56,725 nt of DNA from Gammaproteobacteria bacterium (GTDB lineage Bacteria > Pseudomonadota > Gammaproteobacteria > UWMA-0217). How positions within the stretch are numbered: the stretch's first letter is position 1; each line of letters begins with the position of its first letter. The stretch is taken from the NCBI GenBank assembly GCA_026981985.1, contig JALSHZ010000093.1:1-56725 (forward strand), read 5' to 3'. The position numbers and the translations under genes were made by a program. This document shows positions 3,597 to 22,094 of the stretch, piece after piece. The notes under the pieces are model-generated. The model was not told the DNA's origin and did not search any database. It worked only from the letters and a program-made list of their open reading frames with translations.

Positions 3597-4796
3597 ATGT
3601 TTAGGGCTTTAAAGAGAACCTGTGGTGCCAGCTTGTTGCTGGGGCTGCTTCCATCCCTCCACGCCGGCCAATTGCCCGGCACGGCTGTGCGTTTTGAGCC
3701 TGCTGTCGGTGTTTCGGTTGTTCAAGATGACAATGTGTTTTTCCGCGAGGAGGATAAGATCGCCGATTCCAGCGTGATCATCAATCCACAGCTCAATATC
3801 AGCAGCGATCTGGGTATCGCCGGGGACTCGCTGGAGGTGGATATGGATTTTCGCAGAGAATCCTATTCTAGCGAGTCGAACCTGGACAATGACGAGTACA
3901 GGGTCGCGTTCGAAGGCGTCAAGATGATCACGAGGGCGCAGTATCTCGAATTGACGGTTGCTGCGGAGGAGAGCGTGCTGACCAGGAATGCTGCTGACAG
4001 TTTCGGCAAGCTGCCGGATACGCTCGAACAACGAGAAATGATGTTGGGGTACCACTATAAGGCAGGCTCGATTCCGCTTGCCTTGACCTTTGGGCGAGCC
4101 TCTTGGCGTTATGTCCGGCTTGGGTCCGAGCTTCATAACCCAACCGATTTGCGCGATCGTGATGAGACGCTGGCGACACTGCGCATTGGCTACGCGCCAA
4201 ATGAGGGGCGTGGTATCTATTTTCAGGTTGAGCGCGGCGAGATCACTGGCAAGGCAGATTCGACTGAGCTGGAAGATCGGGATGGTGAAACTATGGACTG
4301 GCGCCTTGGCTATCGCTTCAAGACGCCCGGTTTCATCGACCTGGAGGCCAATCTCGGCATGCACTCCCTGCAATATGACGATGCGAAGCTGGCCGATGTG
4401 GAGGAGTTCGTTCACTTGCTCCGCGTGGCATTCAGCCTGAGCTCGCTGACCAGGTTGACCTTCAATAGCAGCAATCAGGTCGAAATGACGCGTCTTGCCG
4501 GTAGCCCTGGTTATCAGTCCTTGAACAATACGCTGGCCTTGGAGCATGACTTCGGCAGACGTCTTCGGTTGCGTGTACAGCTGGCAAAGGGTACAGACAC
4601 GTTCCTGGATAGCGAGGTAGAGGACAAGACCTCGGAACAGGGTGTCTCGATCCGTTATTTGCTGGGGCGACGCTTCTCGCTATTTGCGTCGGCGGTGCAG
4701 GAGACGCGCCGAAGAAACAGGGTATCTGTGGATACCTTCGATGAATCCGAGGTTGAACGGGGTGTGATTTCGGCTGGCATTCGTTACGGACTGTGA
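3597..4796 (+). CDS. outer-membrane beta-barrel protein of the exopolysaccharide locus (BBP2-like)
   Basis: A 399-residue protein with an N-terminal signal peptide (hydrophobic stretch then SLHAGQ) and alternating amphipathic strands throughout, rich in short turns with D/N and ending in the aromatic-containing strand ISAGIRYGL. This matches the putative beta-barrel porin 2 type found in polysaccharide gene clusters (for example VpsM-like proteins). It sits directly upstream of the OPX and co-polymerase genes on the same strand, so it probably forms the outer-membrane pore or supports export of the polymer. Family placement is by overall pattern and context. Confidence 0.7.
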   Translation: MFRALKRTCGASLLLGLLPSLHAGQLPGTAVRFEPAVGVSVVQDDNVFFREEDKIADSSVIINPQLNISSDLGIAGDSLEVDMDFRRESYSSESNLDNDEYRVAFEGVKMITRAQYLELTVAAEESVLTRNAADSFGKLPDTLEQREMMLGYHYKAGSIPLALTFGRASWRYVRLGSELHNPTDLRDRDETLATLRIGYAPNEGRGIYFQVERGEITGKADSTELEDRDGETMDWRLGYRFKTPGFIDLEANLGMHSLQYDDAKLADVEEFVHLLRVAFSLSSLTRLTFNSSNQVEMTRLAGSPGYQSLNNTLALEHDFGRRLRLRVQLAKGTDTFLDSEVEDKTSEQGVSIRYLLGRRFSLFASAVQETRRRNRVSVDTFDESEVERGVISAGIRYGL

Positions 4797-4885
4797 GCTT
4801 GTTCGCATTGCAGCCGGGGGTGGGGATCGTTTTCCCCAAGGCGTGGTCTGTATAAGCGCCAGTTCGTGTTCAGGGGGAGTTTCAG

Positions 4886-5428
4886 GTGGTGAAGGTAAAA
4901 TCAGGTTTATTGCTGTTGTTGCTGGTTCCGGTGTTGTTGCTGTCGCAAATTGCCGCTGCGGATGACTATCGAGAATATCGCTTGGGTGTTGGTGACAAGG
5001 TCAAGGTCGATATTTTTGGGCACCCGGAATTGTCGGGTGATCTCGTGGTCAATGGTGGCGGGGATGTGGTGCTGCCCTTGATCAACGCTGTCAGTGCGGT
5101 GGGTCTGACAACCCATGAACTGGCGGAGCGTATTACCTGGAAACTGAAACCTGACTATCTGGTCAATCCCAGGGTCACGGTTGAGTTACTGGGTTATCGT
5201 CCCTACTACATTCTTGGCGAAGTCAATCGTTCGGGGAGCTTTCCCTATGTTGAGGGCATGACCGTACTCAACGCGGTCGCGCTGGCTGGTGGCTTTTCCG
5301 ACAGGGCGAATCGAAAGAAAATGCGTATCGAACGCAAGTTTGGTGAGGGACGGAAAAAGATCAAGGCCACGCCGAATAGCAAGGTACAGCCGGGCGATAT
5401 TATCGTCATCAAGGAGCGGTTTTTCTAA
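4886..5428 (+). CDS. short polysaccharide export (OPX, Wza-like) protein
   Basis: A 180-residue periplasmic export protein with a cleavable signal peptide ending IAAA-D and no lipobox cysteine. It then has a poly_export domain (about residues 28-105, starting YRLGVGDKVKVDIFG) and one SLBB domain (about 107-160, YYILGEVNRSGSFPYVEGMT). E. coli Wza is about twice as long and has a C-terminal helix that crosses the outer membrane; that part is absent here. The GTG at 4886 is preceded six bases upstream by GGGGGAG. Lying between a barrel gene and the co-polymerase gene, it likely bridges the inner-membrane complex to the separate barrel. Confidence 0.88.
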   Translation: MVKVKSGLLLLLLVPVLLLSQIAAADDYREYRLGVGDKVKVDIFGHPELSGDLVVNGGGDVVLPLINAVSAVGLTTHELAERITWKLKPDYLVNPRVTVELLGYRPYYILGEVNRSGSFPYVEGMTVLNAVALAGGFSDRANRKKMRIERKFGEGRKKIKATPNSKVQPGDIIVIKERFF

Positions 5429-5493
5429 ATACTGACAGGCTGAGTGGTAGCGCTTGGGAAAAAATACAAATCGATGTTCTGGGAATAATAACA

Positions 5494-7704
5494 ATGAAAT
5501 CAGAAACAGCCAGACGCCTGGAAGCCGATGAATCGAATACGTCCGGATTGACGATCAGAGAGCCTATTCCTGTGGTCGGACCTGCGCTGGGTTCAGCCGA
5601 TGAATTCAGCCTGCGTGATGTTTTTGCGGTATTCCGCGCGCATTTGCCGCTTTTTCTTGCCACCCTGCTATCCGTTCTCGGTGTTGGCCTCGTACTCGCG
5701 CTCATCACGCCGCCGTCGTATGAATCCACGGCAGTGATCAACCTCGAGGACCGATCCTCTTTCGTCAATACCGAGAAAATGCTTGGTGGTGAGGTGCCTG
5801 GTATCTCGCGTGATACCTCGGTACTTGAGTCGATGCCGCTGGCCATTCGTGTACTCGGGCGGCTGCAGGAGGAAAAAAGGCTGCCGCAGGCAGAGGGAAA
5901 GAAAATAGGCTCGATCCCGGCCGTACAGATCAAGCAATTCCGGCGCAAGCTCAAGGTAGAACACACACCCGGGTCGTCAGTGTATGCGATTTCCTACAAG
6001 GATACGGACCCCGAGTTTGCCGCGCGCGTGGTCAATCTGGTAGTAGAAGAGTTCCGCAACATGAAGAGCGAGCTGCTGGGTAAGCGCTATGCCACGGTGC
6101 GTGGCTCGATCAATCAGGAAGCCGAGCGTCTGCGCGACGAGGTTCGCAAGGCGGAAAAGAAAGTAGCCGACTACAAAAAGGCGCACGGGCTATCCGACAA
6201 TATCGGTATTGCATTGAAAATTCGTCAGGTCAGTGACCTCAACTCAGAGTTGAGGCAGGCCAAAACAGCGTTGCGCCAAATGGAATCCAAATGGAAGCAG
6301 CTTTCGGCATTGACCCAGTCGGGCAATACAGCGGCGATTGCCACCGTTGTCAATTCGGTACTGGTGCAGACGTTACGGGATAGACAGGTCGCCCTGAAAG
6401 CCAGAATTCGGGAGCTGGAGCAGGAGTATGGTGCGCGTCATCCCATCATGGCAGATGCTCGGGCCCAGCTCGAAGAGATCAATGGCAGCATTCGCCGTGA
6501 ACTCGATTTTCTGGTGGAGAATAGCCGCAACGACCTCCAGGCACAGAAGCAGAAGGTTGAGCTGCTGGTAGCTGACATCAAAAGGCTTGAGGAGGAAATT
6601 CTCCGGGCTCAGGAGGCATTGCTGCGCCTTGGGGACATGGAGCGTGATGCCGAGTCGAGTCGCAGAGTTCTGGAGCAATTCCTTGTCGCCGAAAAGCAGC
6701 ATAGTATCAGCGCCCAAAACCAGATAGCGCTGTCCAATCCGATTACCGTTATCTCCCGTGGGTTTGTTCCGGTCGAATCAGCGTTTCCGAATCCCCGTCA
6801 TATTTTGGTTCTGTTCGCACTTGCGGCGCCGATCCTGGCGACGATGATGGTTTTCTTTGCTGAACATTTCAATCCACGGCTTCGTAGCCGACAGCTGCTC
6901 ACGGAGACGCGATCCAATGAGCGCTTGTCTGGGCAACATGAGGTGGCGTCTGAGTCGGTCCCGCAGCCTGAGCCTGATGGCGATGATGATGTCCGTTTCA
7001 TTGGTGATACGGTGGTTCCATTACAGCAGGATGAACTGAGTGTTCCCATTCCCGGCGACGGGTTTACGATTGTTCCGGCGACCGAAATGGTGTCCAAGAT
7101 GCAATCCCGTTTTTCGGCGGCGGTGTCGCGTCTCAATGACGTGTTGATGGCCCGAATAGGGGAGACCGAACCCAAGGTGATTCTTGTGACATCGGTTGGT
7201 CGTAAGGGGGACAAGGTGTCGATTGCTGCTGCACTGGCGGCGCTGAATGCCGGGCGCGGGAAAAAGGTAATCGTCGTCGATATATCCATGGGCGAGGCGG
7301 AGCTGCACCGAGCATTTGCGCTGGAGCCGTCTCCGGGCATGAGCGAAGTGATGCACAAGAAGATGCCGTTGCTCAAGGCCTTTCAGACCGATTTTCGTAC
7401 CCACGTAAGCCTGTTTACGCGTGGGGCGCCGCTCAATAGCAGTGAAATGCCGAAGTTGATCGATGCGGCGCCGGCGTTGTTTACATTGTTGAAACGATAT
7501 TTCGATCAAATCTATGTCGTCGTCAGGGATATCAATGTGGCGGCGCAAGATGAGCTGTTCAGTGATCAGGTCGATCAGATTCTGTTGGTGATGGAACAAA
7601 ACGGAAACCAGCATGTCAAACTCACGTCCATGCTGCTCAAGTCGACTCTTGCGAGCGTCAAGGACAAGGTGGTTCCGGTCTATGTAGCTCGCCAGAACGG
7701 TTGA
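5494..7704 (+). CDS. Wzz-type polysaccharide co-polymerase fused to a degenerate tyrosine-kinase domain
   Basis: A 736-residue inner-membrane protein. The Wzz domain has a first membrane helix at about residues 50-72, a large periplasmic coiled-coil part (about 190-410), and a second helix at about 437-457 preceded by the proline-rich FPNPRH motif. The cytoplasmic part (about 540-736) aligns in layout with BY-kinases such as Wzc, but the Walker A region (residues 561-576, ILVTSVGRKGDKVS) lacks the GKS/T signature, the Walker B equivalent reads IYVVVRD, and there is no C-terminal tyrosine cluster (only one Tyr near the end). It probably controls chain length and export without autophosphorylation. 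It follows the OPX gene by 65 bp in the same direction. Confidence 0.88.
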   Translation: MKSETARRLEADESNTSGLTIREPIPVVGPALGSADEFSLRDVFAVFRAHLPLFLATLLSVLGVGLVLALITPPSYESTAVINLEDRSSFVNTEKMLGGEVPGISRDTSVLESMPLAIRVLGRLQEEKRLPQAEGKKIGSIPAVQIKQFRRKLKVEHTPGSSVYAISYKDTDPEFAARVVNLVVEEFRNMKSELLGKRYATVRGSINQEAERLRDEVRKAEKKVADYKKAHGLSDNIGIALKIRQVSDLNSELRQAKTALRQMESKWKQLSALTQSGNTAAIATVVNSVLVQTLRDRQVALKARIRELEQEYGARHPIMADARAQLEEINGSIRRELDFLVENSRNDLQAQKQKVELLVADIKRLEEEILRAQEALLRLGDMERDAESSRRVLEQFLVAEKQHSISAQNQIALSNPITVISRGFVPVESAFPNPRHILVLFALAAPILATMMVFFAEHFNPRLRSRQLLTETRSNERLSGQHEVASESVPQPEPDGDDDVRFIGDTVVPLQQDELSVPIPGDGFTIVPATEMVSKMQSRFSAAVSRLNDVLMARIGETEPKVILVTSVGRKGDKVSIAAALAALNAGRGKKVIVVDISMGEAELHRAFALEPSPGMSEVMHKKMPLLKAFQTDFRTHVSLFTRGAPLNSSEMPKLIDAAPALFTLLKRYFDQIYVVVRDINVAAQDELFSDQVDQILLVMEQNGNQHVKLTSMLLKSTLASVKDKVVPVYVARQNG

Positions 7705-7778
7705 TATCGATACCTATCAGCGGGTTTTCGTTCAGGCCGATCCCGGGGCATTGAACAGCTGATCTGCTTGGAGTATCG

Positions 7779-8936
7779 ATGAAAATACTGACAGTCATTG
7801 AAACGGGAGGAGGTGGTTCTGGTCGCCATATTCTCGACCTCGTAACGGGATTGGTTGCCAGCGGGCATGAGATCCATATCGTTTATTCGCCACTGCGGGC
7901 CGAAGCAGCTTTTGAGGCGAAGTTGCTGGCACTCAGCGGGGTAACGGTCGTATCGATGGATATCCGCAAGGCGGTTGGGATGCATGATCTCTCCGTGCTG
8001 CTCGAACTCCGGCGCTATATTCGTGACCATGGTCCCTTCGACATCGTGCATGGCCACAGCTCAAAAGGTGGTGCACTGGGGCGTTTGGCCGCCACCGGCA
8101 CCGCAGCAGCGCGGCTGTACACGCCGCACGGCTTGTACACTTTGAATCCGGTGTTGATGCCGGTGAAGAAGAAGGTCTACGGCATGATCGAAGCGCTGCT
8201 GGCGCGTACCATCAGTGATGGTGTCATTGCTGTTTCGGCAGAAGAGTTCGATCATGCGCTGGCGCTGGGAATTCCTGCCCAGAAAATGTACCTCGTTGGT
8301 AACGGGGTGGATCGTAGAGATACCGCTGAATTGGCAACGACCAGACGTGAGGTGAGGGCACGTCTGGGGGTGCCCGATGACCTGCCGGTGGTTGGTTTTG
8401 TCGGACGCTTTTGTACGGCGAAGGCTGCCGAGCGCTTTGTCGAGCTGGCAAGACGGATCCGCGATGCTGGTCAGGATGCCCGCTTCATCCTGTTGGGCTC
8501 AGGACGGACGGCTGGTGATATCAACAGCATGATTTCAGCCTATGGCCTCGATGACTATCTCCAGGTTTTTCCCAATGAGTCCGGGGAAGCGTTCATGCCT
8601 GCCTTTGACATCTATACTCTGACCAGCCGCTATGAGGCTATGCCTTATGTGTTGCTGGAAGCCCTGGCAGCAGGGCGCCCCATCGTGGCGACGGATGTTG
8701 GTGGGAGTCGGACTGCAGTCGATGATGGGGGCAATGGTTTCGTTGTACCACAGCAGGATGATGTGTCGGAGATGGCAGCCAAAGTATCCCTGCTACTGAC
8801 GGATCGCGCTCTGCGGCAAAAAATGGGGCATGCATCCTTCCGTAAGGCGCAGGACTTCAGCCTCGACAGCATGGTTCAGGGTACGACTGGTGTCTATGAA
8901 AGCGTCATTTCCCGGCCTATGGCCTATGCAACCTGA
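7779..8936 (+). CDS. glycosyltransferase family 4 protein
   Basis: A 385-residue GT-B enzyme expected to add a sugar to the lipid-linked repeat unit at the cytoplasmic membrane face. The N-terminal acceptor domain starts MKILTVIETGGGGSGRH and contains DIVHGHSSKGG. The C-terminal donor domain has VGFVGRF and the EX7E motif (EAMPYVLLE) followed by ALAAGRPIVATDVGG, typical of retaining GT4 enzymes. It closes the rightward barrel-OPX-PCP-GT group, 74 bp after the co-polymerase gene. The sugar cannot be told from sequence. Confidence 0.92.
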   Translation: MKILTVIETGGGGSGRHILDLVTGLVASGHEIHIVYSPLRAEAAFEAKLLALSGVTVVSMDIRKAVGMHDLSVLLELRRYIRDHGPFDIVHGHSSKGGALGRLAATGTAAARLYTPHGLYTLNPVLMPVKKKVYGMIEALLARTISDGVIAVSAEEFDHALALGIPAQKMYLVGNGVDRRDTAELATTRREVRARLGVPDDLPVVGFVGRFCTAKAAERFVELARRIRDAGQDARFILLGSGRTAGDINSMISAYGLDDYLQVFPNESGEAFMPAFDIYTLTSRYEAMPYVLLEALAAGRPIVATDVGGSRTAVDDGGNGFVVPQQDDVSEMAAKVSLLLTDRALRQKMGHASFRKAQDFSLDSMVQGTTGVYESVISRPMAYAT

Positions 8937-13778: not shown

Positions 13779-14882
13779 ATGAGACTTTGGATGGTCAGGC
13801 TGGCTGGATTGCTCGCGCTAGCTGCTGTGACGGCGCTATGTGTGATGACCAATGCACCACGCATCGAGGCTGAACTGGAAAAACGGGCGACGGATAGTAT
13901 TGCGTCATTAGGTGCTGGCTGGGCCGATGTCGAAGCCGACGGCCGCGATATCATTATCAGCGGTACGCCCCCGGATGCCGATGCGTCGGCGCAGCTAGGC
14001 GAGGCAGTCGAATCCATCACCGGTGTTCGCACCGTACGCTTTGTCAGTGCTACAGTGACTGAAACCGCAACCACAACCTCTATTCCTACACCCGATCCGG
14101 TCTTCACCGCAGAGCGCCAATCCCCTGAAACACCGATCGTACTCGGCGGCGTTATTCCGCCAATGCCCGATGGCGAATCGTTGGCCAATCTGTTGTCGTC
14201 ACAGCAACTGCAACTGCAACTGGACGTAGATGAGCTGGTGACCGCCGACGTTCATCTCAAAGGTGCGCCGGAAATTCTCGCCGCCGCCATTGGTGTATCT
14301 GCCTTGTTGGACAAGGGCAAGGTGGACATTCGTCCGGGACACATTGTTGTCACCGGTACGCCCCGGGACAAGGAAGGGGCGGCGGCTATTCGAGAGAAAT
14401 TCAGTCCTTTCCTTGGTCTTGGCTATGTGCTTGAAATGGCCGAGCAGGGGGACGAGCAGCCTGCTACTGCCGCCATTGCTGCCGGGTCGTCGGCGGGTGG
14501 TGACAGCGCGCTGAACCTGTGCCAACAACAGATCGACAGCAGCCTGGCCGAGGGCGGAATTCGATTCAGAAACAGCAGCGCGGTGTTACAGCACGACTCC
14601 ATGCCGCTACTGGAACAGCTTGCTGCGATGCTGAAGGCTTGCCCGGGCAGCGTCGTCGTAATCACCGGGCATACCGATTCCCGTGGTGATGCCGCTGCCA
14701 ATCAGCGTTTGAGCGAGGCGCGAGCCAATGCAGTAGGCGATTTCCTGAGAAAACAGGGGCTAGCCCCGTCGAGAATCAAAACCAGGGGTGCCGGAGAGGC
14801 CGAGCCGGTAGCAAGTAATAATACAGCCGACGGCAGAGCCCGCAACCGAAGAATAGAAATGACGCTGGAGGAGATGGAGTAA
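13779..14882 (+). CDS. membrane-anchored BON-BON-OmpA peptidoglycan-binding protein (module 1)
   Basis: A 367-residue protein. One N-terminal hydrophobic helix (about residues 5-22) replaces the usual OmpA barrel, so it should sit in the inner membrane facing the periplasm. Two BON-like repeats follow (about 27-90, with DGRDIIISGTPPDADA, and about 150-228, with GHIVVTGTPRDKEG), then an OmpA C-terminal domain (about 245-360) with ITGHTDSRGD and LSEARANAVGDFL, holding the Asp and Arg that bind diaminopimelate. The ATG at 13779 has TGAGGA five bases upstream; the frame is open further upstream, but that part is unlike a leader. Its stop overlaps the next ATG by one base. Its N-terminal BON half is paralogous to the gene at 20482-20928. 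Cellular role unknown. Confidence 0.85.
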   Translation: MRLWMVRLAGLLALAAVTALCVMTNAPRIEAELEKRATDSIASLGAGWADVEADGRDIIISGTPPDADASAQLGEAVESITGVRTVRFVSATVTETATTTSIPTPDPVFTAERQSPETPIVLGGVIPPMPDGESLANLLSSQQLQLQLDVDELVTADVHLKGAPEILAAAIGVSALLDKGKVDIRPGHIVVTGTPRDKEGAAAIREKFSPFLGLGYVLEMAEQGDEQPATAAIAAGSSAGGDSALNLCQQQIDSSLAEGGIRFRNSSAVLQHDSMPLLEQLAAMLKACPGSVVVITGHTDSRGDAAANQRLSEARANAVGDFLRKQGLAPSRIKTRGAGEAEPVASNNTADGRARNRRIEMTLEEME

Positions 14883-15769
14883 TGAGTTTTCTGATCACGG
14901 AGATCGTGTTGTGCCTGCTGGTTGCTGCACTGATCGGCTGGCTGGTGGCGCGCATCAGCAATAGAATGCGACACAATGCCATCATCGACGAGGTGGCGGC
15001 GTTGCAGGAGAAAAACCGCGAACTCGACGAATATCATCAACGTGCGGAACAGGAGTTCAAGGATCTGCGCGCCGACAAGGCACGGCGCTTGCAAGTGGTC
15101 ACGCGGCAAAAAACGGAGATCTCCCGGCTGGAAGAGGTGCTGCGCGCAGTCGAGAAAGAGCGCAATGGACTCGCAGGTGAGCTGCGAGCTCTGCGAGACA
15201 AAGATGAAGAGGAGCTTGCTACGCTCGAGGCCGAAAAGAAACGATTGCTGGAAGAGAAAGACACGCTCGAACAGGACCGCAAACGGCTTGCGGAACGGCT
15301 CGCGGGTAGTGAGTCGATAGCGCAGATGCTCGAGAATAAGGTCGAAGAACTCGAACATGCACGCAAAGTGCAGCAGGAAAAACTGGATATGCTGCAACAA
15401 CGCAGCGAGAAGCTGGCCGCTGAAAATGAACGTCTACGGCACGAGAACCTGGAAGCCGAGGAGCGCCGAGAAACCTCTATCGACGAGCAGAAAGACCTGC
15501 TGGCGCGCTTTACCTCGCTGGAAAAACTGCATGAAAATGAGGTTGCCGCAAAACATCAGCTGATAGAAGAGCGTACCCGCCTGAACGAGCGTGTGGCGAT
15601 GCTGGAAAAAGAAAACGAACAAGCCCGGCAGCAGATCGAAACGCTCACTGCCGATTTTGAAGACCTGATGACCCAGATCATCGACGTTCGCAACGAACGA
15701 GACGGCTTGTCGGGTACACTCCGTTCGATTGCCTCTATCGCCAGAAAGATCGAGCCGCAGGGAGGCTAA
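14882..15769 (+). CDS. membrane-anchored coiled-coil protein (module 1)
   Basis: A 295-residue protein of unrecognised family. A single N-terminal helix (about residues 4-24) is followed by basic residues (ARISNRMRHN), which places the rest in the cytoplasm by the positive-inside rule. Residues 35-275 are almost entirely heptad-like, charged coiled coil. The last part contains EDLMTQIIDVRNERD, nearly identical to EDLTTQIIDIRTERD in the paralogue at 19640-20482. The start overlaps the stop of the OmpA/BON gene by one base, implying coupled translation and a joint function across the inner membrane. No known domain was recognised. Confidence 0.8.
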   Translation: MSFLITEIVLCLLVAALIGWLVARISNRMRHNAIIDEVAALQEKNRELDEYHQRAEQEFKDLRADKARRLQVVTRQKTEISRLEEVLRAVEKERNGLAGELRALRDKDEEELATLEAEKKRLLEEKDTLEQDRKRLAERLAGSESIAQMLENKVEELEHARKVQQEKLDMLQQRSEKLAAENERLRHENLEAEERRETSIDEQKDLLARFTSLEKLHENEVAAKHQLIEERTRLNERVAMLEKENEQARQQIETLTADFEDLMTQIIDVRNERDGLSGTLRSIASIARKIEPQGG

Positions 15770-15848
15770 GCCGCCGGTTTATAGTCGCGGCGTCACACCC
15801 ATCAGAGATACTTGGCAAAGTGGGGGGGCAAGGTTATATTCGGCCTCA

Positions 15849-15989
15849 GTAACTACTCAGCTTACCCCCTGTGTGCGCCAACTCTGCGTTGGAAGTGCTC
15901 ATTTACACTTGTAAACTGCGCGCTTCCGCCTTGATTTGACGCAAAACGGGGGCAATCTGAGCAGTTACGAGACTGTGCTGAGTAGTTAC
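15849..15989. mobile_element. MITE-like element, copy 1 (141 bp)
   Basis: Perfect 13-bp terminal inverted repeats GTAACTACTCAGC (15849-15861) and GCTGAGTAGTTAC (15977-15989) bound a palindromic interior. An 8-bp direct repeat CGGCCTCA flanks it at 15841-15848 and 15990-15997, as expected for a target-site duplication. The centre (15891-15927) forms an imperfect hairpin with stem GGAAGTGC / GCGCTTCC. No coding capacity, so any movement needs a transposase supplied elsewhere. It ends 69 bp before the leuA start. Confidence 0.88.
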
Positions 15990-16058
15990 CGGCCTCATTG
16001 ACAGGGCGGTATGCGCCCTGCCGTCGCCACTCCAATCAAGCCGCCGCGAGACCTCCCA

Positions 16059-17600
16059 ATGAGCAAGGAACACCTGATTATTTTCGATACGACGCTGCGT
16101 GATGGCGAGCAGAGCCCTGGCGCGTCGATGACGAAAGACGAAAAGGTGCGCATTGCACGGGCACTGGAAAAGATGCAGGTCGACATCATCGAGGCTGGTT
16201 TTCCAATCGCCAGCCCGGGGGACTTCGAGGCCGTGCAAGCGGTTGCCGCTGCGGTGAAAGACAGCACGATCTGCGGGCTGGCGCGCGCGCTGGACAAGGA
16301 TATCGAGCGTGCTGGTGAGGCGCTCAAACCGGCGCAGTCAGCGCGCATTCACACCTTTCTTGCCACCTCGCCAATCCACATGCGCGAGAAGCTGCGGATG
16401 ACGCCCGGCGAGGTGGTCGAAAACGCTGTCAAGGCCGTGAAGAAGGCGCGCCAGTTCACGGATGATGTCGAGTTTTCACCGGAGGACGCCGGGCGCTCCG
16501 AAGTGGATTTTCTCTGCCGGGTGATCGAAAGCGTCATCAATGCCGGCGCCACGACGATCAATATCCCGGATACCGTTGGTTACAATATCCCGCACCAGTT
16601 CGGTCAGCTGATCCGCACCCTGATCGAGCGTATTCCCAATGCCGACAAGGCGGTGTTTTCAGTGCACTGCCATAATGATCTCGGTTTGGCGGTGGCCAAC
16701 TCCCTGGCTGCGGTTCGCAACGGAGCCCGCCAGGTAGAGTGCACCATCAATGGCCTGGGCGAACGCGCCGGTAATGCCGCACTGGAAGAGGTGGTGATGG
16801 CGGTGCGCACCCGTCAGGATGTGTTCGACTGCAATACGCGGCTCGATACCACCCAGATCGTGCCTTGCTCGCGCCTGGTATCGAGCATTACCGGTTTTCC
16901 GGTGCAGCCCAACAAGGCCATTGTCGGCGCCAACGCGTTTGCCCACGAGTCGGGTATCCACCAGGATGGTGTGCTGAAATCGCGCGAGACCTACGAAATC
17001 ATGCGGGCAGAGGACGTCGGCTGGAGCGAGAATCATATTGTTCTCGGCAAGCATTCAGGCCGAAATGCGCTGCGTGCACGTTTTCGCGATTTGGGGATTG
17101 AATTCGATTCTGAGGAAGCCCTCAATGCTGTTTTCGTTCGTTTCAAGGAACTCGCTGATCGCAAGCACGAGATCTATGATGAAGATCTGCAGGCACTGGT
17201 CAGCGCCGCAGCGGACGAGCCCGAGACCTACAAGCTGGTCTATTTGAGTGTTACCTCGGAGACTGGCGAAAAACCGCTCGCGCGGGTCACGCTCAACGTC
17301 AATGGTGAGGAACATTCCAGCGAGGCCATTGGCGGTGGACCGGTCGATGCGGCGCTAAAAGCCATCGAGGAAATTGTCGGCAGCGACAGTCAGCTGAAGC
17401 TTTACTCCGTCAACAACATCACCAGCGGCACCGATGCCCAGGGCGAGGTCACGGTCAGACTGGAAAAGGATGGCCGCATCGTCAATGGCCAGGGTGCTGA
17501 TACCGATATCGTCATTGCGTCGGCCAAAGCCTACCTCAATGCCTTGAACAAACTGCTTTCCCCACGTTTGACGTCGCATCCGCAACACGGGTCGGTATGA
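16059..17600 (+). CDS. leuA: 2-isopropylmalate synthase
   Basis: Catalyses the first committed step of leucine synthesis, condensing acetyl-CoA with 2-oxoisovalerate. The 513-residue protein begins [20 protein letters not shown], as in E. coli LeuA, with the HMGL-like barrel ([48 protein letters not shown]) and the C-terminal allosteric domain that binds leucine (from about residue 390). An in-frame ATG at 16011 would add 16 residues unlike the family, so 16059 is preferred although its ribosome binding site is weak. No leader peptide with a leucine run was seen upstream; a MITE occupies that position. Its stop overlaps the next gene by ATGA. Confidence 0.97.
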
Positions 17601-18316
17601 CGCTGAACCCGTACCAGCAATCTCGCCTGCGGGCGCTGGGTATTGCTCGCTGGGTGCGTAGGGATTTGCCAGAGCCAGCCCAGATGGCGCCTGCGGTGGC
17701 GGCCGAGGTCTCGCCGGCATCCACGACGGTAGCGGTTGAGCAGAATATTGCAGCGATGGCGTGGCCCGAGCTTGAAGTGGCGATTCGTGGCTGTACGGCT
17801 TGCGACCTGCATGCAACGCGCCAGCAGGCCGTTGTTGGTATCGGTAACCGTCAGGCTGACTGGATGATCGTCGGTGAAGCACCCGGTGAGCAGGAAGACC
17901 TGCAAGGTGAACCTTTCGTTGGTCGGGCAGGGGTACTGTTGAACAACATGCTGGCCGCAGTTGGGCTGAACCGGGAAACGGTTTATATCGCCAACGTCAT
18001 CAAATGCCGCCCGCCGGCGAACCGTGATCCGCATATCGAGGAGCTGTCATCCTGTATCGACTATCTTGAACGCCAGATTGCACTCGTTCGCCCCCGGCTC
18101 ATTCTGATTGTCGGGCGCGTTGCGGCGCAAACGTTGTTGCATACCGACACTGCCGTCGGTCGCCTGCGGGGAAAAGTGCATCATTTAGGTGAGCAGAAGG
18201 TTCCAGTCGTGGTGACCTACCATCCCGCCTATTTATTGCGCCGTCCTGCGGAGAAGGCCAAGAGCTGGGATGATCTCAAACTGGCATTGGCCCAGCAGGG
18301 CCACTCTGGCGATTGA
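17597..18316 (+). CDS. family 4 uracil-DNA glycosylase
   Basis: Removes uracil from DNA (239 residues). After a variable N-terminal linker, the glycosylase domain carries [34 protein letters not shown] and the late motif [10 protein letters not shown]. Four cysteines in the family pattern (CTAC near residue 75, IKC, SSC) would bind a 4Fe-4S cluster, which links this enzyme to the isc genes further along. It starts within the leuA stop (ATGA) and overlaps rimI by one base, so the three are probably co-transcribed. Confidence 0.93.
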
Positions 18317-18807
18317 TGGCAACAGACTCGGAGCATCAGTCTCGGCAGATGATGCCGACGAATATCCGGGTAATGCGCCCTGACGATCTTCCCGCTGTCT
18401 ATGATATCGAGACGCGCGCCTACGAGTTTCCGTGGAGCCGCGGTATTTTCAGGGAATGCTTTCGTGCCGGTTATCCTGCCTGGGTCATTGTCGAAGCAGG
18501 GCAGGTGGTGGGTTACGGGATTCTCACCGTGGCAGCGAACGAAGCGCATATTCTGAATCTGTGCATCGATCCCGACTATCAATACCGCGGGCTGGGAAGA
18601 TGCTTGCTGGATGCACTGTTGTTCGCCGCCGAGCAGTTGGGAGCGGAGCGGGTTTTCCTCGAAGTGCGCAAATCGAATCGGCGGGCGCTGAGGATATACC
18701 TCGCGGCCGGATTCAAGCCCATCGGCATACGCAAGCGTTATTATCGAAGTCACGACAGTCGCGAAGACGCCATCGTGCTGTCAATGGAGAACGTTTCCAA
18801 GAACTGA
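18316..18807 (+). CDS. rimI: ribosomal protein S18-alanine N-acetyltransferase
   Basis: A GNAT acetyltransferase of 163 residues expected to acetylate the N-terminal alanine of S18. The core matches RimI: VMRPDDLPAVYDIETRAYEFPWS, LCIDPDYQYRGLGRCLLDAL (acetyl-CoA-binding loop), FLEVRKSNRRALRIYLAAGF and the ending YYRSHDSREDAIVLSME. The ATG at 18316 overlaps the previous stop; internal ATGs at about 18349-18352 are alternatives that would give a more typical length. It is the last gene before MITE copy 2. Confidence 0.9.
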   Translation: MATDSEHQSRQMMPTNIRVMRPDDLPAVYDIETRAYEFPWSRGIFRECFRAGYPAWVIVEAGQVVGYGILTVAANEAHILNLCIDPDYQYRGLGRCLLDALLFAAEQLGAERVFLEVRKSNRRALRIYLAAGFKPIGIRKRYYRSHDSREDAIVLSMENVSKN

Positions 18808-18820
18808 GTTATCGGTGCTT

Positions 18821-18972
18821 GTAACTACTCAGCTCACCACTGAAACACGCCATCTCTGCGTTGGGAAATGGTCATTTACCCGTGTAAACTCACATTTCCC
18901 GCCTTGATCTGACGCGTTTCAGCGGCAATCTGAGCAGTTACGGCTCTATTTCTCTACCTACTGAATAGTTAC
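18821..18972. mobile_element. MITE-like element, copy 2 (152 bp)
   Basis: Begins GTAACTACTCAGC and ends CTGAATAGTTAC, flanked by a perfect 8-bp direct repeat CGGTGCTT (18813-18820 and 18973-18980). The central hairpin (18863-18900) has stem GGGAAATG / CATTTCCC, differing from copy 1 on both sides in a compensating way. The outer arms TGAAACACG / CGCGTTTCA also pair. Non-coding. It occupies most of the 313-bp gap between rimI and the SPOR lipoprotein gene; nothing else is evident in the gap. Confidence 0.88.
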
Positions 18973-19120
18973 CGGTGCTTTACGATAGTTGTCGAAACGT
19001 TGCCACCCGTTCAGGCGACTCTCCCCTTTCCCAAAGGGAAATTGGCTGACTTCTAAATCTGAACTCTGAAACTTGAGTGAAAACCGTTTGGCACGTGCTT
19101 TTCAGTATCGGAGCCGACGA

Positions 19121-19561
19121 CTAACGCCGAATATAGCGAACCTTGGTAAATCCAGAGGAGAGCACTTCCGGCTCGGCGCGGACGGCTTCCTGCAAGTTGG
19201 CAAAGGGACCAACCTGCAGTTTGAAATACTCGGTGCCGTCGTCAGCCTCTGCGAAAATGACGACAGGATGTTTGAGCGTGGCTTTCAGCTTTTTCTGCTG
19301 CTTTTCCGCGTTTTCGCGTGAGGTGTAGGCAGCCAACTGAAGGAAGTAACGCGTGTCGGTTGCTGGTGCTGCTTTCTTTGTGGCGGCAGCATCGCTGCCA
19401 GTGGGTTCCGCCTTTTCGTCATAGGCGCTTTGCCAGGCAGTCGAGCTGGAAGGTTTGCCGAAAAGTTTCTGCTGTCCCGTGCAACCGCTCAGGCTAACGA
19501 GAATCATCGTGATGGCGAAGGGGATGGTGAAGGCGAACAGTCGGGGGGTGGGTGTCGTCAT
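19121..19561 (-). CDS. SPOR-domain lipoprotein
   Basis: A 146-residue envelope protein. The N-terminus has a hydrophobic stretch ending in a lipobox-like LVSLSGC, giving a lipoprotein, then a short linker rich in Ala/Lys, and a SPOR domain (about residues 68-146; YFLQLAAYTSRENAEK, FKLQVGPFANLQEA, KVRYI). SPOR domains bind glycan strands stripped of peptides, mostly at division sites. The ATG at 19561 is chosen over a GTG at 19597 because it places the signal sequence normally. It lies 78 bp downstream of the coiled-coil gene of module 2 and in the same direction, so it probably belongs to that unit. Confidence 0.85.
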   Translation of the reverse strand: MTTPTPRLFAFTIPFAITMILVSLSGCTGQQKLFGKPSSSTAWQSAYDEKAEPTGSDAAATKKAAPATDTRYFLQLAAYTSRENAEKQQKKLKATLKHPVVIFAEADDGTEYFKLQVGPFANLQEAVRAEPEVLSSGFTKVRYIRR

Positions 19562-19639
19562 TTTCGGGATCCATGATGGTCCAAATGGGAGTGTCACAAG
19601 AGCTTACAATATTCGCCGTGGCATGAAAATCGCGGATTG

Positions 19640-20482
19640 TCAGGCCGCGCCTCTACCTTCTTCGGGAATCGCATCGAGCACGCCAGAAATTGTCTTGAGG
19701 CGCTCAAGATAGTCGTCTCGCTCGGTTCTGATGTCGATGATCTGTGTGGTCAGGTCTTCCATGTTGTCGCGCAGTTCGTTGACGCGCCGCTCGTACTCTT
19801 CTTTTTGCTGTTTCAGGTCTGCGACTTTTGACAGGAGCGACTCTTGTTCGTTGAGCAGCAGGTCGACTCTATCCTGATGCTCGTGTTTTTCGCTATCAAG
19901 CATTTCGATTTCACTGGAAAGTGACTCTCGTTCAGAGACGATTTCGAGCAGCTTTTTCTGTGCCTGTTTCGTTTCTGCAGAAAGATCGATCAGCTGGGTA
20001 TTGAGCAGGTTCTTCTCGTCAGAGGTCGCTTCGAGTTCCTGCTCCAGTTCACGCTTGGCGGCGGAGAGTGCAGCAACACGTTCGAGCAGTTGCTTGACCT
20101 TGCTGTTACTTTCGCGCAGCCGTTGCTGATAGGAATGGATCAGTGCGTCACGCTGCTTGATCTCATCATCGAGGTCGGTGAACTGCGCCTTGTTGATGCT
20201 TTTTTCCAGCGTCAGTGTTTGTGCCTTGGCTTCCATGCCGGTCAAGCGGATGCGGAACTCTGCAAGCTGTTTGAGCTGTTTGCGATAGGCATCTGCAAGC
20301 GCATGATTCTCTTTTTTCAGACGGTTTCGGTATTGCTCCAGGGCGTGATATTTTTCCTGCCATTCGGTCAGTTCGCGAATCGCGGCACGTTCGCGGGAGC
20401 GCGCGGTAAAGCGGCCGATGAACCAGCCGATACCTGTGGCAGCGGCAAGAAAGAGAAAGATCTGCGTCATCAGGTATTGCAT
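19640..20482 (-). CDS. membrane-anchored coiled-coil protein (module 2)
   Basis: A 280-residue paralogue of the protein at 14882-15769. The N-terminal helix (about residues 5-23) is followed by GRFTARSRERAAIREL, again basic on the presumed cytoplasmic side, then about 220 residues of coiled coil. The conserved C-terminal signature is EDLTTQIIDIRTERD. The start codon overlaps the stop of the BON gene by one base, the same arrangement as in module 1. No recognised domain; function unknown. Confidence 0.8.
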   Translation of the reverse strand: MQYLMTQIFLFLAAATGIGWFIGRFTARSRERAAIRELTEWQEKYHALEQYRNRLKKENHALADAYRKQLKQLAEFRIRLTGMEAKAQTLTLEKSINKAQFTDLDDEIKQRDALIHSYQQRLRESNSKVKQLLERVAALSAAKRELEQELEATSDEKNLLNTQLIDLSAETKQAQKKLLEIVSERESLSSEIEMLDSEKHEHQDRVDLLLNEQESLLSKVADLKQQKEEYERRVNELRDNMEDLTTQIIDIRTERDDYLERLKTISGVLDAIPEEGRGAA

Positions 20483-20928
20483 CAGTTCTCGAACTCCTGA
20501 TTCGGGGCTTGCTGTGTCGGAAGGGTGAGGGCGGGTGGGTGCTCGATTGCGGTATTTGTAACAATAGAAGCAGAATCGGAGGTGACGCTATGGTCAATGG
20601 TGGCGATGTCGATAGCCACGGGGCGTGATTTCTGGTTGTTGGTGGCGCTTTCCTGACTCCAGCTCGTTTCTACCCGGCGCACACCGGTTGTGTTGCGCAG
20701 CAGACCCACCGCTTTGGCTGCCGCCTCGTCGCTGGGTGGTGTGCCAGACAGGCTGAGGTCGCGCCCGTCGATACTGACCAGTACCCACGCCATGCCGTGG
20801 GATTTCAAGGTTTGTTTAGCATTGGCGAGCACTTCAGACTCGATGGTGGGTGGAATGGTGTAAAGGCATAGCGCGAATACGGCTACCAGTAGAGTGTATC
20901 CGGTGAGCTTGAGAATCCAGCGCATCAT
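20482..20928 (-). CDS. membrane-anchored BON-domain protein (module 2)
   Basis: A 148-residue protein with one N-terminal membrane helix (about residues 8-27) and a single BON-like domain (about 32-95) including SIDGRDLSLSGTPPSDEAA and LLRNTTGVRRVETSW. This matches residues 27-90 of the OmpA/BON protein at 13779, but there is no OmpA domain; after residue 100 the chain is low-complexity. AGGA eight bases upstream supports the ATG. It is the first gene of the leftward group BON, coiled coil, SPOR lipoprotein. TACAAT at about 21027-21032 on this strand could be a -10 box, without a clear -35. Confidence 0.8.
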   Translation of the reverse strand: MMRWILKLTGYTLLVAVFALCLYTIPPTIESEVLANAKQTLKSHGMAWVLVSIDGRDLSLSGTPPSDEAAAKAVGLLRNTTGVRRVETSWSQESATNNQKSRPVAIDIATIDHSVTSDSASIVTNTAIEHPPALTLPTQQAPNQEFEN

Positions 20929-21098: not shown

Positions 21099-22094
21099 CT
21101 AGTGCGCGGGTGCGTTGATGCGGCGCCACAGGGCACGCCCGGCAAATGCCAGAAAGACTGGCCCGCCGATGATGAAGTACCAATAGTAGGTAACGAAACG
21201 CCAGGCGAGCAGGGTGGCGGCGATGGAGCTTGCACCAAGCCAGGGTGCCAGCAGAATGGTAAAACTGATCTCGACGCTGCCGCTGCCGCCAGGTAGTAGC
21301 GTCATCTGTCCAATGCCGAGGCTGAACATCTGAATAAAAAACAGATAGGACCACGGGACGTGAAATCCCAAGGCTTCGATGATGAGGTAGAGGGCTGAGT
21401 AGCGCAGCATCCAGTGACCGGCGGCGAGCACGTAGATTGAGGACAGTCGCCAGCGGGAGAACCCAAGAATCAGTCCCAGTCCGTGACGGAAGCGAATCAC
21501 CCAGCGGGCAATATTCTTGCGCCGCCACGCCGACACCTTGAAACGCGCCAATAGCTTGCCGCTCCACAACAGCACCGGGCGGTAGTGCCGGGCAAAGAAC
21601 CATAACCCGGCGAAACCGCCGACCAGCAACATAGCCATTGTCGCGATCTGGAAACCGAGGTGAAAATCCTCAGGGCCGGTCAGCAGCACCAGCGCCAGTA
21701 CCATCAATGCAGTAACAAAGAAGAACAGATCCAGAATCTGCTCCAGTGCGAATACCGAGGCGGCTTTCGCCGAACTCAAGCCATGCCGGTGCAACAGATA
21801 GGTCTCGGTAATGGCGGCGCCGGTACCAGCAGGCGTTGCAGAACTGGCGAATTCTGACGCAAGTACTGTCGCTAATGCTTTACCCGGTGCGATCGATTCA
21901 CCGACGCCTCGCATGATCAGCTTGAGCTTCAAGGCCTGCGCCACCCAACCCAGCGACACCATTGCCACACCGGCAGCCACGATACTGAGCGGGATCTTGC
22001 GCAGCTCCGCCAAGCCGTCCCAACCACCAATGACGAAGGGTATCAGCAGGCTGAGCGGTAATGCCGCCGCCAGCAACCACCAGGGGCGCTTCAT
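21099..22094 (-). CDS. lysylphosphatidylglycerol synthase TM-region / YbhN-like membrane protein
   Basis: A 331-residue integral membrane protein with about eight hydrophobic helices. The pattern and segments such as LASEFASSATPAGTGAAITETYLL, FALEQILDLFFF and QMTLLPGGSGSVE match the UPF0104 / LPG_synthase_TM family, whose members include the membrane part of MprF flippases and YbhN. Without the soluble synthase domain, a lipid transport or flipping role is likely but the substrate is unknown. It is transcribed alone to the left and is not part of the polysaccharide locus 8 kb away. Confidence 0.85.
   Translation of the reverse strand: MKRPWWLLAAALPLSLLIPFVIGGWDGLAELRKIPLSIVAAGVAMVSLGWVAQALKLKLIMRGVGESIAPGKALATVLASEFASSATPAGTGAAITETYLLHRHGLSSAKAASVFALEQILDLFFFVTALMVLALVLLTGPEDFHLGFQIATMAMLLVGGFAGLWFFARHYRPVLLWSGKLLARFKVSAWRRKNIARWVIRFRHGLGLILGFSRWRLSSIYVLAAGHWMLRYSALYLIIEALGFHVPWSYLFFIQMFSLGIGQMTLLPGGSGSVEISFTILLAPWLGASSIAATLLAWRFVTYYWYFIIGGPVFLAFAGRALWRRINAPAH

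Follow-up and report, generated by a model that had tools for sequence, protein, structure and literature searches.

The stretch of DNA analysed here, referred to as the window, covers positions 1-56,725 (forward strand) of contig JALSHZ010000093.1 from a gammaproteobacterium. It harbours two modules, each composed of a gene for a BON-domain protein and, downstream on the same strand, a gene for a coiled-coil partner, named CC1 in module 1 and CC2 in module 2 (Table 1). An earlier note, made from the sequence alone, had given the coordinates, gene order and strands of both modules, and reading of the open reading frames (ORFs) showed them to be correct. The one-base overlap of stop and start codons that it described was also found, as TAATG at 14880-14884 (+) in module 1 and as TGATG at 20484-20480 (-) in module 2. 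The genes lying between the modules code for LeuA, a family-4 uracil-DNA glycosylase and RimI.

Table 1. Features of the two modules and of the adjoining SPOR gene in the window.
Feature	Positions	Strand	Basis
Module 1 BON-OmpA protein, 367 residues	13779-14882	+	ORF, Pfam, AlphaFold
Module 1 coiled-coil partner CC1, 295 residues	14882-15769	+	ORF, charge pattern, AlphaFold
CC1 conserved rod-tip signature EDLMTQIIDVRNERD	15659-15703	+	CC1/CC2 alignment
Module 2 BON protein (BON2), 148 residues	20928-20482	-	N-terminal membrane helix and one BON domain, without OmpA
Module 2 coiled-coil partner CC2, 280 residues	20482-19640	-	ORF, helix signature, charge pattern
CC2 conserved rod-tip signature EDLTTQIIDIRTERD	19715-19759	-	CC1/CC2 alignment
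SPOR-domain lipoprotein	19561-19121	-	Pfam SPOR E 3.1e-11; LSGC lipobox by eye

Both members of the pair are homologous between the modules. The BON proteins share 37% identity (E 3.6e-16), and CC1 and CC2 are identical at 79 of 267 aligned positions. Within the latter alignment, identities are densest (13 in 20 columns) in the EDLxTQIIDxRxERD signature near the C-terminus to which the earlier note had drawn attention; 150 of 10,000 column shuffles equalled or surpassed this count. The membrane helix, which corresponds to the first 20 columns, holds 10 identities. In a tree of 47 pairs, calculated from the BON protein and the partner helix with ultrafast bootstrap, module 1 and module 2 each form their own clade (100) and cluster together in a single clade of the window's family (99). 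The duplication of a homologous pair, already proposed from the sequence, is therefore confirmed and occurred within this family. The same genome carries a third module on another contig (C63), where a BON-OmpA gene is followed by that of a membrane protein ending in a DUF4332 domain (E 6e-23; such a domain, or one of the helix-hairpin-helix type, is hereafter called the head), and it contains at least three BON/partner modules. The DUF4332 copies of genomes G000 and G003 group together (98), outside the module 1/2 clade.

With regard to the BON proteins, that of module 1 starts with a membrane helix, followed by a BON unit (residues ~50-89), a second BON-like unit (~163-222) and an OmpA domain (~242-365), the peptidoglycan-binding type that had been read from the sequence and is recovered by Pfam with an E of 4e-23. 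The BON matches of both modules lie under the Pfam cut-off of 27 bits (18.9 bits in module 1, 21.3 in module 2), and a BON-like alpha/beta layout is present in the AlphaFold model of the module 1 protein. In this model (mean predicted local distance difference test, pLDDT, of 75.2), a helix spanning residues 2-43 continues into the BON unit, and the stretches 92-106, 125-162 and 223-241 are weak. The OmpA part matches OmpA domains that bind diaminopimelate, both by sequence profile and by Foldseek. Two of its residues, D300 and R315, are invariant across 10 homologues, and their spacing of 15 residues is that of the diaminopimelate-binding pair of OmpA. These features suggest that these particular BON/OmpA proteins may bind peptidoglycan.

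The partners have a distinct topology. CC1 possesses an N-out membrane helix (residues ~4-22), and its AlphaFold model, derived from a two-sequence alignment, is a single helix from residue 2 to residue 290 (mean pLDDT 88.9); the ~265 residues past the membrane would amount to a rod of ~39 nm at 0.15 nm per residue. Among 40 partners, lysine and arginine total 1 before the membrane helix and 132 within 15 residues after it. By the positive-inside rule, the long C-terminal part of the partner, including the CC rods, should therefore be cytoplasmic, in agreement with the cytoplasmic coiled coil of the first description. Long periplasmic coiled coils exist, and both products of the module are envelope proteins, so that a coiled coil lying in the periplasm and reaching toward the outer membrane had to be considered. 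This alternative is very improbable in view of the charges, and also because the head of homologous partners matches the tails of the cytosolic proteins L21, S2 and NuoE.

As coiled coils match one another too easily, the partner family was delineated by a model restricted to the helix, built from residues 1-40 of 26 partners that bear a head, with all CC proteins left out. The conserved pattern is YL..QI..LLxAAxxGxxxGW. When 7862 ORFs from the window and the loci were scored, CC2 (E 2.9e-8) and CC1 (E 3.6e-8) appeared in rows 45 and 46, and all scores better than E 0.005 belonged to partner-type proteins or to ORFs consisting of the helix only. In both window modules, a BON protein with an N-terminal membrane helix is followed directly downstream, on the same strand, by a partner with this helix signature, by which CC1 and CC2 are members of the partner family. 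Matches of the CC proteins to SMC, crescentin, ZapB and others were rejected as compositional, being well under the curated cut-offs.

The gene linkage was counted from two sides. A query of 84,980 species genomes with the helix-hairpin-helix head domain matched at least 591 stretches, at least 509 of them encoding a relative, and the best 80 loci were kept, a ranking that favours relatives sharing the helix of the query. Within these 80 loci, an OmpA ORF lies directly upstream on the same strand of 24 of the 26 head proteins with the helix signature, versus none of the 54 without it; the two remaining helix-and-head loci (L157 and L159) start at a contig edge, and the model-independent figure is 23/25, L139 sharing a contig with the helix-model sequence L127. 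The hosts of the 24, many of them metagenome bins, include Gammaproteobacteria (Arenicella, Marinicella, Lysobacterales, Alcanivoracaceae and Thiotrichaceae), Alphaproteobacteria (Hyphomicrobiales, Maritimibacter, Shimia, Marinovum, Robiginitomaculum and other Rhodobacteraceae) and Campylobacterota (two bins, one of which is named Sulfurovum). Two alphaproteobacterial loci have a small helix-only ORF with the same signature immediately before the partner gene, L157:49-234 (+) and L158:3773-3958 (+), and coordinates place others likewise at G077:C5:27039-27122 (-) and G479:C12:37246-37344 (+); these would make three-gene operons with two such helices.

From the BON side, 276 genomes from the window's class were scanned with a model combining the membrane helix and the BON domain (TM-BON). 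It gave 82 places, 45 of which at E <= 1e-7, a limit chosen after inspection of the list, and eight of the 45 are sequences used to build the model. A same-strand downstream partner beginning with a membrane helix is present at 39 of the 45 places, at distances from a few-base overlap up to 117 bases, and two places (G002:C95 and G281:C96) are cut by contig ends. Leaving out the model-building places, 32 of 37 have a partner, four have none and one is cut by a contig end. Two of the 37 weaker places were inspected, and the pair is present in G143 and absent in G279. At least one pair occurs in 22 of the 276 genomes, with three pairs each in G000, G069 and G193. Across the phylum, and irrespective of gene neighbours, 30 of 397 genomes contain the helix signature with E <= 0.001. 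Judged from these sequences, the distribution of the family is patchy. Among 72,556 plasmid records, no copy of CC1 was found, and an alphaproteobacterial partner gave partial matches alone, in eight records.

Adjacency of BON and partner genes, whose constancy the earlier note had proposed to test, is thus the rule on both sides but does not always hold: single members exist, and the scattered homologues that it had set against its own reading form a minority. It is conceivable that common envelope genes lie side by side by chance and that the likeness of the coiled coils is compositional, since spurious scores arise when coiled coils are compared with one another or with SMC models. This explanation can practically be dismissed, however, as the helix signature suffices to tell partner-type proteins apart from all others among the 7862 ORFs and predicts the upstream OmpA gene in the proportions given above.

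Beyond the helix, the 39 partners found from the BON side are diverse, ranging from 48 to 1139 residues. The helix signature is matched at E < 0.001 by 34 of them, including 24 by construction as they are in the model (the bare helix of G242:C5 was left out of this scoring). A head, recognised by helix-hairpin-helix or DUF4332 models, is carried by 27 of the 39, 25 of these by construction; independently of our own models, DUF4332 is above the Pfam cut-off in 11 of the 39. Frequent without being universal, the head was not made a defining trait of the family. Heads of the helix-hairpin-helix type in L115, L104, L107 and L110 have matches in the tails of the NCBIfam models of NuoE, L21, S2 and phasin PhaH. 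Among the 12 headless partners, five are rods of the window's family and one is a bare helix, and there are two each of acidic-tailed coiled coils, repeat proteins and short proteins. The repeat partners, L036:4071-7022 (-) and L111:2983-6399 (+), have about 1000 residues of LPKVDV-like and DAKHTLADKAKHLAD-like repeats replacing the coiled coil. In L116 (986 residues), L120 (1026 residues) and L122 (977 residues), several hundred coiled-coil-like residues separate the helix from a helix-hairpin-helix head.

The rods of the window represent a restricted form within this diversity. In 255 genomes, a model of five CC proteins found full-length relatives only in G000, G001 and G003, which belong to the window's own family; in head-bearing partners it matched the N-terminus (E 9.7e-9 to 3.1e-6). 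Among these genomes, the signature and rod, for which the earlier note had envisaged a profile search, were thus found in one family only, and with head-bearing kin elsewhere the rod form is most simply viewed as a derived variant of that family. None of the five CC proteins gave a significant match to helix-hairpin-helix or DUF4332 head models (E 5.5 or worse). A head remnant at the ends of CC1 and CC2 had looked suggestive in an alignment with a homologue possessing both coiled coil and head, and was rejected, the best position-specific score being equalled in 94-652 of 1000 shuffles for the five proteins. The duplication in the window's family probably came after the head had been lost or replaced.

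The frequency of heads raises the question of their function. The head-bearing versions might be anchors of the nucleoid to the wall, in which the head binds DNA, and the window copies would then have lost DNA binding and become scaffolds. Besides the presence of the head in most partners, this proposal can draw on matches of some heads to helix-hairpin-helix models that include DNA enzymes, albeit mostly weak ones (DNA polymerase IV, E 0.03). We nonetheless regard it as doubtful, given that the same type of domain forms the tails of the alphaproteobacterial L21, S2, NuoE and phasin PhaH models and occurs in a photosynthetic subunit, and that the tails of CC1 and CC2 hold no trace of a head. 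The photosynthetic subunit is protein-O, and the authors of its structure describe what these domains do as obscure (PMC12079452). DNA binding by the head is therefore possible, not assured.

Another explanation places the function in the BON-OmpA protein, which would act alone in envelope stress, as has been suggested for mycobacterial Rv0899/ArfA, the partner being an accessory or stability factor and the coiled coil no tether. With the BON-OmpA sequence profile, the best match in the PDB is indeed Rv0899 (2l26, E 3e-42, profile positions 110-354); with the AlphaFold model, Foldseek places OmpA C-domains on top and Rv0899 at rank 7. Partners of up to 1139 residues, most of them with conserved heads, fit a scaffold better, and some modules are entirely devoid of OmpA, which makes this explanation unlikely.

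The SPOR gene had been reported 78 bp downstream of module 2, and its ATG indeed lies at this distance past the stop codon of CC2; the SPOR domain scores 43.9 bits for a Pfam cut-off of 21. All three genomes having module 2 carry a SPOR gene downstream of it, at 78 bp in the window and at about 280 and about 150 bp in the others, and the homologues in these two other genomes of the family match with E values of 1e-11 and 4.9e-17. The gene may be co-transcribed with module 2. As a rule, SPOR domains attach to denuded glycan at the septum, and this gene is the only hint that the modules might play a role in division or shape. The idea that a SPOR gene is a general trait of OmpA-less modules was dropped after inspection by eye of G069, G193 and G281.

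Taken together, we consider it rather likely that the modules represent a lineage-specific duplication of a two-gene tether between wall and cytoplasm, with interchangeable heads. The BON protein would be held in the inner membrane by its N-terminal helix, with its BON domain(s) serving as a spacer across the periplasm and, in module 1, the terminal OmpA domain gripping the peptidoglycan. The partner, a predicted single-pass protein with its N-terminus outside, would form a complex with the BON protein through pairing of its conserved helix in the membrane, and its C-terminal part would extend into the cytoplasm, ending in most members in a helix-hairpin-helix/DUF4332 head. In the headless window copies, the rod may dock onto a cytoplasmic client by its conserved 15-residue tip. 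Module 2 has no OmpA grip, and the SPOR lipoprotein encoded downstream may steer the complex to the septal wall. The trans-envelope device of the earlier note is borne out as far as the duplicated pair, the linkage, the predicted cytoplasmic rod and the wall domain of module 1 are concerned, whereas its role in division or shape leans on the SPOR gene only. Further, that note had recognised the pair itself and missed the widespread head-bearing family of which the window pair is an offshoot.

Several observations weigh against the tether. Four of the 39 partners (L033, L108, L111 and L121) give no signature match (E 0.05 to 2.7), and four of the 45 TM-BON places have no partner, namely, G274:C19, G054:C31, where an unrelated membrane-type ORF begins 300 bases downstream, G262:C9, and G003:C233, where the contig runs on for just 300 bases. 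Conversely, helix-DUF4332 proteins of G047 and G183 have no BON gene in the stretch examined, and DUF4332 is present in 47 of the 276 genomes, mostly at places without a TM-BON match, so that carrying a head is not in itself diagnostic of the system. BON2, in which Pfam detects no OmpA domain, is without a wall-binding domain of its own. Around the BON helix, lysine and arginine number 39 before and 34 after in 21 proteins, so that it may be an anchor or a cleaved signal; if it is cleaved, pairing with the partner helix fails. Lastly, the distances to the SPOR gene are such that its co-transcription with module 2 is not assured, and no SPOR gene was recognised near the G069, G193 and G281 modules that lack OmpA (by eye and with no domain search, the G281 contig being short).

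A broader proposal, which we put forward tentatively, is that of a class of trans-envelope tethers in Gammaproteobacteria, Alphaproteobacteria and Campylobacterota, where a constant wall and membrane part is combined with swappable arms and heads, among them helix-hairpin-helix and DUF4332 domains, repeats and rods. The versions with heads would tie the nucleoid or another body to the wall, while the lineage of the window would have swapped the head for a rod of fixed length and duplicated it, one copy becoming septal via SPOR. The longest partners would form rods of more than 100 nm if fully helical. Known devices that connect cytoplasmic structures directly with the peptidoglycan of diderm bacteria are few. 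If the tether is real, a cassette of two genes in which the membrane part is constant and the heads can be swapped would provide a modular link between wall and cytoplasm, and possibly a job for the orphan helix-hairpin-helix/DUF4332 domain of ribosomal, respiratory and photosynthetic subunits; the gene linkage over several bacterial groups makes the idea testable. The earlier note knew of no described system with such an architecture, and the open literature searched gave neither a description of one nor fused-domain names.

Some neighbouring genes deserve mention. Adjoining module 2, at 21099-22094 (-) of the window, is a gene for a membrane protein of the lysylphosphatidylglycerol-synthase type, near the NCBIfam glucosaminyl phosphatidylglycerol flippase (303 bits for a cut-off of 320). 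A few kb upstream of module 1, positions 3597-8936 hold polysaccharide-type genes, coding according to Pfam for a beta-barrel porin, a Wzz-like chain length protein and a glycosyltransferase. In three related genomes (L032, L103 and L106), OmpA-less modules with BON, coiled coil and head adjoin a globin-like gene, beyond which lies a CheW-like gene in two and a RecQ-like gene in the third. The helix-DUF4332 proteins of G047 and G183, L130:1688-2317 (+) and L134:2710-3339 (-), adjoin a hisI-like gene. The assignments in these other genomes were made by eye.

Among known systems, Rv0899/ArfA/OmpATb of Mycobacterium tuberculosis resembles module 1 in its membrane-anchoring N-terminus, BON-type centre and OmpA C-domain, a layout that module 2, devoid of OmpA, does not share. 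The available part of one source reports this domain layout together with a role in acid adaptation, and describes no coiled-coil or helix-hairpin-helix partner for this non-proteobacterial protein (PMC6151718); nor is a BON/coiled-coil pair described in the accessible portion of a second ArfA paper (PMC10487802). DolP, BonA and OsmY have a periplasmic BON domain like the window proteins, but they are outer-membrane lipoproteins or a soluble protein (PMC8406262), whereas the window BON proteins have a membrane helix and, judged by eye, lack a canonical lipobox. The dual-BON proteins DolP and BonA localise at the division site (PMC8406262), and their lipobox and two BON domains distinguish them from BON2, which has one BON match and no canonical lipobox by eye. 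The pair is not described in the sections at hand of two papers on BON proteins (PMC11747388, PMC8406262). FtsZ-like genes adjoining OmpA-like genes belong, as far as the available text goes, to another system (PMC2875224), and PapS is an OmpA-like lipoprotein of the outer membrane, in a paper whose accessible part does not describe the pair (PMC11369160). The crescentin rod model reaches only 13.7 and 22.3 bits with the window proteins for a cut-off of 100. Helix-hairpin-helix proteins of the COG3743 type or with DUF4332 (NuoE tail, L21 tail, RC-LH1 protein-O) have the head found in most partners, but in 54 of the 80 loci this head comes without the partner helix and never with an upstream OmpA, and the window copies are headless. 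HubP/FimV carries LysM within a single polypeptide, unlike the window proteins, which have no LysM match in Pfam; as for ZapG/YhcB, CC1 scores 10 bits against a cut-off of 33.5, and the model is not among the 25/26 families shown for CC2. Both are polar or divisome scaffolds that work in the way proposed for the modules, a single membrane helix connecting a cue in the envelope with a scaffold or coiled coil on the cytoplasmic side.

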